From Firmicutes bacterium UBA6132 (GTDB lineage: Bacteria > Bacillota_A > Clostridia > Tissierellales > Sedimentibacteraceae): a DNA stretch of 15,436 nt. Each line of letters begins with the position of its first letter. Position 1 is the first letter of the stretch. Location: contig DIVM01000380.1 of assembly GCA_002435835.1 (NCBI GenBank), positions 1 to 15,436 on the forward strand. Direction: 5' to 3'. Positions 13,484 through 15,366 of the stretch are shown here, piece after piece. The translations under genes and the position numbers were made by a program. The notes beneath the pieces were generated by a model. The model did no database searches. It saw nothing but the letters and a program-made list of their open reading frames with translations, and was not told the origin of the DNA.

Positions 13484-13561
13484 CTCTGGAGAGACTCTTT
13501 ATGAGCACCGAAGGGGAAAACTATTTTTATAATAGTGAAGCTCTCAGGTAAAAGAACAGAG
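13484..13561 (+). ncRNA. Glycine riboswitch, single aptamer
   Basis: The RNA binds glycine and controls the downstream operon. Conserved elements in order: P1 CTCTG (13484-13488) pairing with CAGAG (13557-13561); GAGAG (13489-13493) pairing with CTCTC (13541-13545); the core GCACCGAAGGGG (13505-13516); a variable hairpin CTATT/AATAG (13521-13535); and CTCTCAGG then AAAAGAACAGAG (13550-13561). This matches the glycine aptamer consensus closely. Only one complete aptamer is present. The usual tandem partner is missing both upstream and downstream. A short stem TCGG/CCGA (13454-13457 with 13468-13471) just upstream may be the remnant 'ghost' helix seen in singlet glycine riboswitches. Confidence 0.93.
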
Positions 13562-13610
13562 ATATAATTTACATATCATATTGTATTATGTATTTATGTT
13601 TTTGTAGTAT

Positions 13611-13637
13611 AAAGAGACTTGTCAAAAGTCTCTTTTT
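13611..13637 (+). terminator. Riboswitch expression-platform terminator
   Basis: A 10-bp perfect stem AAAGAGACTT (13611-13620) with AAGTCTCTTT (13626-13635), 5-nt loop, running into TTTTT. It lies 49 nt after the aptamer and 86 nt before the ACT gene, so it can only serve to attenuate this operon. The right arm could alternatively pair with AGAGACT in the aptamer (13490-13496). Downstream, at 13638-13723, there is a perfect TATAAT at 13693-13698 with a poor -35 (TTCGTA, 16 bp away), a possible weak promoter that would bypass the switch. The rest of that stretch shows only the GGAGG of the next gene. Confidence 0.88.
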
Positions 13638-13723
13638 ATATATACGAGTAAATTCGGACAAGCAAGCAGCTTCGTAAATAATTTATTCAAACTATAATAT
13701 AATTTAATTGGAGGATTTAAATA

Positions 13724-13993
13724 ATGAAAGCAATAATAACTATCTTAGGAAAAGACAAAGTTGGTATAATCGCATCTGTTTCAACTTCATTAGCCAAGCA
13801 GAACGTAAATATTTTAGACATAACACAAACAGTTATGAAAGAATATTTCACTATGACTATGCTTGTTGACTTAGAAAAATTGGAAACAGAATTTATAGTA
13901 CTACAAGAAGAGCTTACAAACATAGGCAGAGAATTACAAATGGATATAAGAATTCAACGCGAAGACATCTTTGTAAAAATGTATGAAATTTAA
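13724..13993 (+). CDS. ACT domain-containing protein, UPF0237/GcvR-like
   Basis: Small protein of 89 residues made of a single ACT domain, the fold that typically binds an amino acid at a dimer interface. MKAIITILGKDKVGIIASVS (1-20) is the first beta strand and GKDKVGIIA ligand loop, followed by a helix and VNILDITQTVM (28-38), as in GcvR and the UPF0237 family. The C-terminal part (60-89) is a helix and a final strand. GGAGG lies 9 nt before the ATG. It is the first gene after the glycine riboswitch and 14 nt ahead of the DUF711 gene; this two-gene pairing recurs in many Firmicutes. Sensing of glycine or a related amino acid is inferred from the domain and the riboswitch. The exact ligand and partner are not known. 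Confidence 0.92.
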   Translation: MKAIITILGKDKVGIIASVSTSLAKQNVNILDITQTVMKEYFTMTMLVDLEKLETEFIVLQEELTNIGRELQMDIRIQREDIFVKMYEI

Positions 13994-14007
13994 TTAAGGG
14001 GCTAATC

Positions 14008-15366
14008 ATGATAAAAACTAAAAATATATTAGAAACTATAAAAATGGTCGATGAACTTAAATTCGACATACGAACAGTAACAATGGGAATTTCATTATTA
14101 GATTGCGCTGATTCAGACGGAGCCATAGCAAGAAAAAAAATATATGAAAAAATAACAAGACTAACAGAAAATTTCGTTAAAACCGCTGAAAAAACTGAAA
14201 AAGAATTCGGAATTCCTATAATAAATAAAAGAATTTCTGTTACACCTATTTCCATAATTGCAGGTTCATCTACAGACACTGATTATGTCAAATTTGCAGA
14301 AATTTTAGATAAAGCTGCTGATGTTGCAGGGGTTAATTTTATAGGAGGATTTTCTGCTTTAGTTCAAAAGGGGTTTACAAAAGGTGATGAAATATTAATA
14401 CGTTCAATTCCCGAAGCTTTAGCATTAACTAATAAAGTATGTTCATCTGTAAATGTGGCTTCAACAAAAGCCGGAATTAATATGGATGCTATTAAACTTA
14501 TCGGACAAATTGTAAAAGATACTGCTTATTTAACAAAAGATAAAGATAGTCTTGGATGTGCAAAATTAGTTATTTTCGCAAATGCTGTTGAAGATAATCC
14601 TTTCATGGCTGGCGCATTCCATGGTGTTGGTGAAGCTGAAAAAGTTTTAAGTGTTGGTGTAAGTGGTCCTGGTGTTGTAAAACATGCTTTAGAAAAAGTT
14701 AAAGGTGAGGATTTCACTTCTGTGTGTGAAACAATTAAACAAACGGCTTTTAAAATCACACGTGCCGGTGAAGTTGTTGCTAAAGAAATATGCAATAGAT
14801 TAAATGTTCCATTTGGAATAATGGATTTATCATTAGCTCCTACTCCAGAAATAGGAGATAGTGTTGCTCGAATATTGGAAGAAATAGGATTAGAAAGCTG
14901 CGGAGCTCATGGTACAACTGCTGCCCTTGCTCTTTTAAACGATGCAGTTAAAAAAGGTGGAATAATGGCATCTTCAAATGTTGGTGGATTAAGCGGTGCA
15001 TTCATTCCTGTAAGCGAAGACGAAGGAATGATTGCTGCAGTTCAATTAGGTTCATTAAGTTTAGATAAATTAGAAGCTATGACTTGTGTATGTTCAGTAG
15101 GTTTAGATATGATTGCTATTCCTGGAGACACACCTGCAAGCACAATTTCAGCTATAATAGCTGATGAATGTGCTATAGGAGTTATTAATCAAAAACCAAC
15201 AGCAGTAAGATTAATACCAGTTTACGGAAAAACTGTAGGTGATTTAGCTGAGTTTGGAGGACTTTTAGGAAGAGCTCCAGTAATGGCTGTAAGCAAATTT
15301 TCAAGCGAAGCATTTATAAACAGAGGCGGCAGAATTCCAGCCCCTATTCATAGCTTCAAAAATTAA
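14008..15366 (+). CDS. DUF711/UPF0210 family protein (PFL-like fold, function unknown)
   Basis: 452 residues, the full length of the UPF0210 family, whose members are named 'PFL family protein' because the fold resembles pyruvate formate-lyase. Family landmarks: DIRTVTMGISLLDC (20-33), GAFHGVGEAEKVLSVGVSGP (202-221), LAPTPEIGDSVA (276-287), ESCGAHGTTAAL (296-307), DTPASTISAIIADECAIG (374-391) and the C-terminal GGRIPAPIHS (440-449). The glycyl-radical motif of true PFL enzymes (RVxGY-like) is absent, so it is not expected to be a radical enzyme. No signal peptide or membrane segment is seen. AAGGGG precedes the ATG at 14008. It is co-transcribed with the ACT protein under a glycine riboswitch, pointing to a role in glycine or related amino-acid metabolism. 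The reaction is unknown. Confidence 0.93.
   Translation: MIKTKNILETIKMVDELKFDIRTVTMGISLLDCADSDGAIARKKIYEKITRLTENFVKTAEKTEKEFGIPIINKRISVTPISIIAGSSTDTDYVKFAEILDKAADVAGVNFIGGFSALVQKGFTKGDEILIRSIPEALALTNKVCSSVNVASTKAGINMDAIKLIGQIVKDTAYLTKDKDSLGCAKLVIFANAVEDNPFMAGAFHGVGEAEKVLSVGVSGPGVVKHALEKVKGEDFTSVCETIKQTAFKITRAGEVVAKEICNRLNVPFGIMDLSLAPTPEIGDSVARILEEIGLESCGAHGTTAALALLNDAVKKGGIMASSNVGGLSGAFIPVSEDEGMIAAVQLGSLSLDKLEAMTCVCSVGLDMIAIPGDTPASTISAIIADECAIGVINQKPTAVRLIPVYGKTVGDLAEFGGLLGRAPVMAVSKFSSEAFINRGGRIPAPIHSFKN

Follow-up and report, generated by a model that had tools for sequence, protein, structure and literature searches.

We analysed a stretch of 15,436 nucleotides from Firmicutes bacterium UBA6132 (contig DIVM01000380.1), called the window here, which carries near its 3' end a glycine riboswitch followed by two genes that encode a small ACT-domain protein and a protein of the DUF711 family. 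The features of the locus are as follows:

13445..13479, + strand: ghost-aptamer-like 5' element (AUGA...CGG / CCG...GGAC)
13476..13569, + strand: glycine riboswitch aptamer, single, type-2-like (RF00504, 63.4 bits, gathering cut-off 32)
13481..13488, + strand: P1 5' strand (cmscan alignment)
13495..13503, + strand: predicted antiterminator strand 1 (CUCUUUAUG, inside P2), nine contiguous pairs with the terminator 5' arm, the last G-U
13556..13605, + strand: predicted hairpin sequestering the P1 3' strand in the ligand-free fold (pre-terminator and full-leader folding)
13557..13564, + strand: P1 3' strand (cmscan alignment)
13608..13616, + strand: predicted antiterminator strand 2 (UAUAAAGAG), same pairing, overlapping the terminator 5' arm
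13611..13635, + strand: intrinsic terminator (hairpin prediction, -11.3 kcal/mol)
13710..13714, + strand: GGAGG, likely ribosome-binding site of the ACT gene
13724..13993, + strand: UPF0237 ACT-domain protein, 89 aa (NF001220, PF13740; PDB 1zpv, E 1.1e-17)
14008..15366, + strand: UPF0210/DUF711 protein, 452 aa (NF003700, PF05167; PDB 2ha9, E 2.3e-188)

RF00504 is the only Rfam family that matches the window at its gathering score. The match covers the full length of the model (positions 1-94, E 2.1e-11) and encloses nucleotides 13484-13561, where an earlier note on this DNA had placed a glycine riboswitch. By its RF00504 score the RNA upstream of the ACT-DUF711 pair is confirmed as a glycine riboswitch. 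Two features can be added to the earlier description. The aptamer is of the second-aptamer kind, with GGAC on the 5' side and ACAGAG on the 3' side in the aptamer alignment, and many relatives carry a clear 5' hairpin resembling a ghost aptamer, of which the window has a weak version. The terminator noticed earlier upstream of the genes was also recovered, and it is the only terminator-like hairpin within 13328-13760 (shuffle mean 0.0, standard deviation 0.2). The Rfam scan found no T-box in the window. Seven promoter candidates were obtained compared with 3.0 expected (standard deviation 1.8), and none was singled out.

The two genes, which are separated by 14 nt, encode the UPF0237-UPF0210 pair that the note had recognized. 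The open reading frame at 13724-13993 scores 116.9 bits with NF001220 (cut-off 74), and that at 14008-15366 scores 757 bits with NF003700 (cut-off 440) and 643.9 bits with PF05167. The DUF711 fold is a ten-stranded ribonucleotide reductase/PFL barrel. The earlier label 'PFL-fold' is thus right as to the fold, but the Pfam scan of the window protein returned PF05167 alone at E <= 1e-3 and no glycyl-radical domain. The protein also has no cysteine in the loop joining strands 5 and 6, and DUF711 is probably a barrel of this type that does without radical chemistry. NCBI records call DUF711 a 'PFL family protein', a name that may mislead. The family has members among both bacteria and archaea (present in 5 of 14 control genomes), its structure has been solved since 2006 (2ha9), and the family names that we met give no function. 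DUF711 also occurs in 19 phage records, and the 10 of these that were listed are all unannotated. Four overlong DUF711 proteins (P0010, P0058, P0061 and P0111), considered as a fusion clue, proved to contain internal duplications and no ACT domain.

The association of riboswitch and operon recurs in other genomes. Using our own covariance model (R1, built from 25 aptamers), we found an aptamer upstream in seven of 80 named DUF711 loci, all confirmed by Rfam: Clostridium caldaquaticum, C. folliculivorans, C. akagii, C. frigoris, Maledivibacter halophilus and two metagenome-assembled Bacillota. The riboswitch is also present in Peptoclostridium acidaminophilum DSM 3953, where the genes are annotated 'ACT domain-containing protein' and 'PFL family protein', and before all three over-cut-off ACT genes of the Maledivibacter family, one of them that of the starting species. 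G001, the nearest genome in the set searched, has four sites with six aptamer hits in total. They precede gcvT, a glycine reductase gene (at about 0.5 kb), a sodium:alanine symporter gene and ACT-DUF711. The last of these leaders is nearly identical to that of the window and is therefore not an independent witness.

The family of C. muellerianum was picked for a larger survey because a T-box had already been found there. An ACT gene over the cut-off is present in 137 of its 194 genomes, and the leaders of 95 genomes, C. muellerianum itself included, comprise 22 riboswitches, 10 glycine T-boxes and 63 cases with neither. The sample was not random, and 22/95 and 10/95 are not unbiased rates. It took the 30 best-scoring loci of the 137 first (no riboswitch, one T-box) and then 60 of the next 80 places, the best-scoring 20 being omitted after a genus search had hinted at riboswitches in lower-scoring loci; together with six genus loci this gives 96 loci in 95 genomes, in which at least two named species (C. 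caldaquaticum and C. frigoris) are present more than once. Six further genomes (G582, G555, G591, G584, G534 and G535) were added once their hit was known and are not counted in the 95. The riboswitch lies on the operon strand in all 32 upstream hits measured (two species twice), 63-381 nt before the ACT start. If three riboswitch loci per 3.7-Mb genome are assumed, about 0.03 adjacent riboswitches would be expected by chance in some 96 loci compared with the 22 of 95 seen, so the sampling bias is no threat to the association. A search for riboswitches before other UPF0237/UPF0210 pairs, which the earlier note had proposed as a check, has yielded seven named loci, P. acidaminophilum and the 22 family genomes.

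The aptamers of such leaders have retained their structure. Across 33 distinct aptamers 91.7% of cells are paired compared with 86.0% in shuffles, a figure flattered by the fitting of the alignment to the covariance model, and slid controls gave 23-53%. Changes on both sides of a pair affect 50 cells at eight pairs, versus 19.7 cells in shuffles. The number of further pair types in the 33 aptamers is not unusual (24 versus 22.2; 74 of the 500 shuffles do as well), and two pairs at the outer end of P1 are open in many or most of the aptamers.

A second kind of leader occupies the same place in other relatives. Rfam identifies T-boxes (RF00230) there in C. muellerianum and Clostridium sp. MSJ-8. 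Other leader types were sought in the 80 named loci and 13 class regions, and further T-boxes by motif with at most two mismatches. Rfam recognized a T-box at 11 of 12 loci. The gathering score of 93 bits was reached at nine of these (L010, L024, L206, L207, L250, L256, L274, L289 and L302) and missed at L244 (92.1) and L278 (88.5), while L253 was unrecognized at E 1e-3. Within the genus of C. muellerianum the ACT gene is present in six of seven genomes, three with tandem glycine T-boxes and three with a glycine riboswitch.

Specifier codons were read by a simple rule, as the codon ending six bases before GAG[CU]. The rule was tried on 30 T-boxes of C. muellerianum, with the genes identified by eye from their N-termini, and gave a codon that suits the gene at 13 loci, several loci yielding more than one codon. 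The fitting codons are CTC (LeuRS and, twice, IlvC-like), TGC (CysK), CCT (ProRS), AAC (AsnA and AsnRS), TTC (PheS), ACC (ThrRS, twice), TAC (TyrRS), ATC (IlvA-like) and GCA (AlaRS). It fails at six loci (two SerA-like, two ArgG, ArgRS, and SerRS, the last by one base); the rest comprise five without the motif, five that could not be judged, and the ACT operon itself. For ACT-DUF711, 14 of 15 candidates at the 12 loci read GGA or GGC, and in five of the 14 the rule also returned ATG or TTA by way of an overlapping GAG. Because the rule is imperfect, we aligned these T-boxes with the tandem pair that precedes a glyS-like gene in C. muellerianum (class II synthetase core and anticodon-binding domain, N-terminus judged by eye). 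In the columns where both of those T-boxes show GGA, each of the 14 carries GGA or GGC, and each also has the UGGA bulge. This bulge calls for a U at the discriminator position, as is found in tRNA-Gly. The fifteenth candidate, a T-box-like motif at L253, was excluded: it differs in the specifier columns and looks degenerate.

T-boxes turn genes on when their cognate tRNA is uncharged. This evidence is independent of the riboswitch and points to glycine rather than to serine or threonine, and since two unrelated glycine sensors occur on one operon type, the tie between operon and glycine is strong. The earlier note had tentatively placed DUF711 in glycine (or serine/threonine) metabolism; a glycine-related regulon agrees with the first part of that proposal, whereas the parenthesis is not what the T-boxes name.

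The window leader has the predicted architecture of an OFF switch, that is, a terminator and a competing antiterminator built from aptamer sequence. In the minimum free energy fold of the pre-terminator transcript, the P2 segment CUCUUUAUG is base-paired to UAUAAAGAG, and a long hairpin takes up the P1 3' strand. This fold has a z score of -3.7 and no shuffle matches its stability, and the full leader folds to form the terminator. A predicted pairing between the terminator 5' arm and the 5' region of the aptamer, six or more bases in a row with G-U permitted and a minimum of two G-C, is found in 31 of 33 leaders. The usual partners are CUCUGGAGAG with CUUUCCAGAG or a variant of it. CCCUUGG and CAAGGG take their place in the C. 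frigoris group, P1 and its competitor having changed together. The same pairing is found in one of five gcvT/grd leaders, four of 12 symporter leaders, both threonine synthase leaders and the one leader of a DUF711 remnant, and not in the glycine reductase leader L003 (0/1); one grd and five symporter leaders failed for want of a detected terminator. In folds of transcripts truncated ahead of the terminator 3' arm, 26 of 29 leaders have six or more arm bases paired with the aptamer, compared with none of the four gcvT/grd leaders with a terminator, 0/1 for L003, and three of six symporter leaders with a terminator. With the aptamer forced, the terminator probability goes up by at least 0.10 in 13 of 29 leaders, and in no leader does it drop by that much. 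In a duplex test against shuffled leaders p 0.05 is reached by 14 of 33 leaders, both thrC leaders, the remnant leader and one of 25 others. The pairing of the terminator arm with the aptamer 5' region predicts that glycine turns the operon off. That the operon is off when glycine is plentiful and on when it is short, a point on which the earlier note did not commit itself, is likely, based on comparison among leaders, co-transcriptional logic and agreement with the T-boxes.

In a FastTree phylogeny built from 164 distinct ACT+DUF711 rows, riboswitches are characteristic of two groups: one clade in which 27 of the 32 rows have them, the window being part of it, and a separate clade of seven. 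T-boxes mark 11 of 51 rows of a different clade that also includes Bacilli. Eight changes of leader state are enough to explain the tree compared with 41.7 in shuffles, a low count for which near relatives account in part; the placement of the window, on a long branch, is unsure. The distribution assigns the two sensors to separate lineages of the operon, possibly coexisting within one genus, and not to a simple exchange of sensors on a single gene copy. DUF711 proteins of Gilliamella contigs (Pseudomonadota; L018 and L020) are about 75% identical to that of the window, and L020 falls among Bacilli in the tree, a placement suggestive of transfer.

The riboswitch and its recurrence, the T-boxes with their glycine specifiers, the antiterminator pairings and the fold were all computed here. 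Building on them, we consider it quite probable that the single type-2-like riboswitch is a transcriptional OFF switch of ACT-DUF711, that the operon has a role in glycine supply or shortage, and that the ACT protein is a glycine sensor acting on DUF711. Under glycine scarcity, the aptamer would pair through its 5' portion with the 5' arm of the terminator and transcription would continue. When glycine is bound, the aptamer would close, the terminator would form and the operon would be off. In other clostridia, tRNA-Gly T-boxes would likewise turn the same kind of operon on in glycine shortage. As T-boxes are on when tRNA-Gly is uncharged and the riboswitch is predicted to be off with glycine, the operon appears to be one of glycine shortage rather than a catabolic one. 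The ACT-DUF711 pair would serve glycine supply or adaptation to glycine shortage, and its proteins probably help cells to cope with such shortage. The ACT protein is a plausible glycine sensor and would probably tune DUF711, which we infer it contacts.

Two unrelated glycine sensors on one operon narrow the function of DUF711 to a testable question, namely its role when glycine is exhausted, and a ribonucleotide reductase/PFL-type barrel in which no radical domain was detected is thereby placed in amino-acid metabolism. More tentatively, and with considerable doubt, the operon could represent an undescribed system of glycine provision or economy in which a glycine-sensing ACT subunit controls a non-radical barrel enzyme of this type, and which acquired a glycine sensor at least twice in clostridia, as a riboswitch and as tRNA-Gly T-boxes.

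Several observations weigh against the preferred interpretation of an OFF switch and a glycine-shortage operon. The riboswitch is rare in the class of the window, being present in one of 97 upstream regions in addition to G001 (97 of 102 PF05167 rows, leaving out four partial matches and the already known G001; some regions were shortened by contig ends, down to 98 bases), and 63 of the 95 genomes from the C. muellerianum family have neither leader. No gene neighbourhood is conserved, the largest listed clusters of open reading frames spanning at most five of the 80 named loci, and gene context thus offers no clue to function. Only 14 of 33 leaders out-pair 95% of their own shuffles, and for the window p is 0.08. 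The antiterminator of the window uses P2, while most relatives use the P1 strand. In the full-length equilibrium fold of the window the terminator has a probability of 0.95 whether the aptamer is forced or free. This quantity fails to discriminate between the bound and free states there, so the OFF reading of the window rests on the co-transcriptional argument.

The opposite direction, in which excess glycine induces the operon and DUF711 removes or ferments glycine, would liken the leader to those of gcv and grd. Passages of PMC11477304 describe gcv of C. difficile as ON and suggest the same for grd, and the nearest genome has riboswitches near genes of both kinds. However, the glycine T-boxes of this operon imply that it is induced when glycine is short, and the leaders differ from those of gcvT/grd both in the pairing of arm and aptamer (31/33 versus 1/5, one of the five being without a detected terminator) and in their pre-terminator folds (26/29 versus 0/4). 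Moreover, 90% of type-2 singlets are tied to transporters according to a passage of PMC6944388, and one transporter riboswitch that was measured is described in part of PMC5829553 as an OFF switch. We consider an ON switch improbable. Far more remote is the idea that the RNA is degenerate, or unrelated and upstream by coincidence. It draws on the small share of DUF711 operons that have the riboswitch (7/80 named loci, 1/97 in the class), and it is hardly compatible with a score twice the gathering cut-off, with an aptamer structure retained over 33 distinct relatives with two-sided changes, with 32 of 32 measured hits on the operon strand, or with the roughly 0.03 cases that chance would give in some 96 loci.

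A third explanation agrees with the preferred one on regulation and differs on function. The operon would respond to glycine, but its products would act near glycine, in threonine or serine supply, one-carbon units or the cell wall, and the ACT protein would sense another amino acid or leave DUF711 alone. Two leaders of the same architecture precede threonine synthase genes (L316 and L336), and one-carbon metabolism is suggested by the formyltetrahydrofolate deformylase matches of the ACT protein. In addition, threonine aldolase-like (LtaE-like) genes, defined here by a PF01212 E-value <= 1e-80 and a match length near 850 bases, are rarer in genomes with DUF711, both in the class (8/98 versus 19/50 without, p 2e-5) and in the C. 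muellerianum family (37/137 versus 26/57, p 0.018). However, the aldolase pattern clusters by taxonomic family and is unrelated to leader type (riboswitch 9/27, T-box 3/11, neither 18/63), and a replacement of threonine aldolase was for this reason not used as evidence. Both leader types, moreover, name glycine itself. This explanation is a serious contender, at somewhat less than even chances, and we favour a direct role of ACT-DUF711 in glycine supply or shortage.

Other riboswitches were seen around these loci. The glycine riboswitches before the threonine synthase genes (Thr_synth_N) have the same antiterminator design, so that threonine synthesis may be under repression by glycine in some clostridia. 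In G595 (L369:2420-5750) a DUF711 remnant of 91 aa follows a glycine riboswitch and is oriented divergently from a threonine synthase gene and a GHMP-type kinase gene, and an over-cut-off ACT gene lies elsewhere in the genome. Two adjacent glycine aptamers precede a gene for a DUF5058 protein (246.8 bits) at L312:1426-2520. Moco (L013:5294-5406), TPP (L014:433-532), THF (L033:1627-1727, minus strand) and FMN (L035:5596-5744) riboswitches occur near DUF711 loci and not directly before the operon. Directly 3' of DUF711 in the window, a very stable hairpin (15371-15421, -35.1 kcal/mol, z -7.3) is perhaps a terminator or a mobile palindrome; an 18-base piece of it has no exact match among 379 loci.

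Compared with glycyl radical enzymes and ribonucleotide reductases, the window DUF711 lacks the radical domain in the Pfam scan and the loop cysteine, as described above. SP0239 (PDB 2ha9) and the ACT protein of PDB 1zpv, presumably the adjoining SP0238, have entry names that give no function. Beyond UPF0237, the best NCBIfam matches of the window ACT protein are formyltetrahydrofolate deformylase (PurU) models (NF004684, 2.2e-7, far under the curated cut-off) and then, weakly, GcvR (NF008612, 1.9e-4, 20.9 bits versus a cut-off of 267). The ACT domains of both proteins answer to glycine, and their architectures differ from that of the window protein. The glycine T-boxes of the operon's relatives resemble those of the glyQS/glyS type in being short and in their GGA/GGC specifier and UGGA bulge; the latter target a synthetase, unlike those before ACT-DUF711.

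The riboswitch itself is of an ordinary kind, with a new and informative target. The targets named in the portions consulted of PMC11477304, PMC6944388, PMC3766115, PMC12452182 and PMC2211319 include gcv, grd, transporters, serine genes, malate synthase and COG4198. We found no earlier report of ACT-DUF711 as a glycine riboswitch target in the open-access literature, supplementary tables and the bins 'Gly_Met' and 'Other' of Crum 2019 not being covered, and we present it as a new target while priority is not proved. As 90% of type-2 singlets precede transporters (Crum 2019, PMC6944388, in part), ACT-DUF711 is an unusual target for this type. To judge from parts of that paper and of the study of the S. 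pyogenes symporter switch (Khani 2018, PMC5829553), the transporter singlets share with the window leader the single aptamer of the second kind and the terminator platform. They may also be like the ACT-DUF711 leaders in the ghost-aptamer-like 5' element, seen in relatives, and probably are so in being off with glycine. Unlike them, the window riboswitch controls ACT-DUF711, and its predicted antiterminator sets the 5' region of the aptamer against the 5' arm of the terminator.

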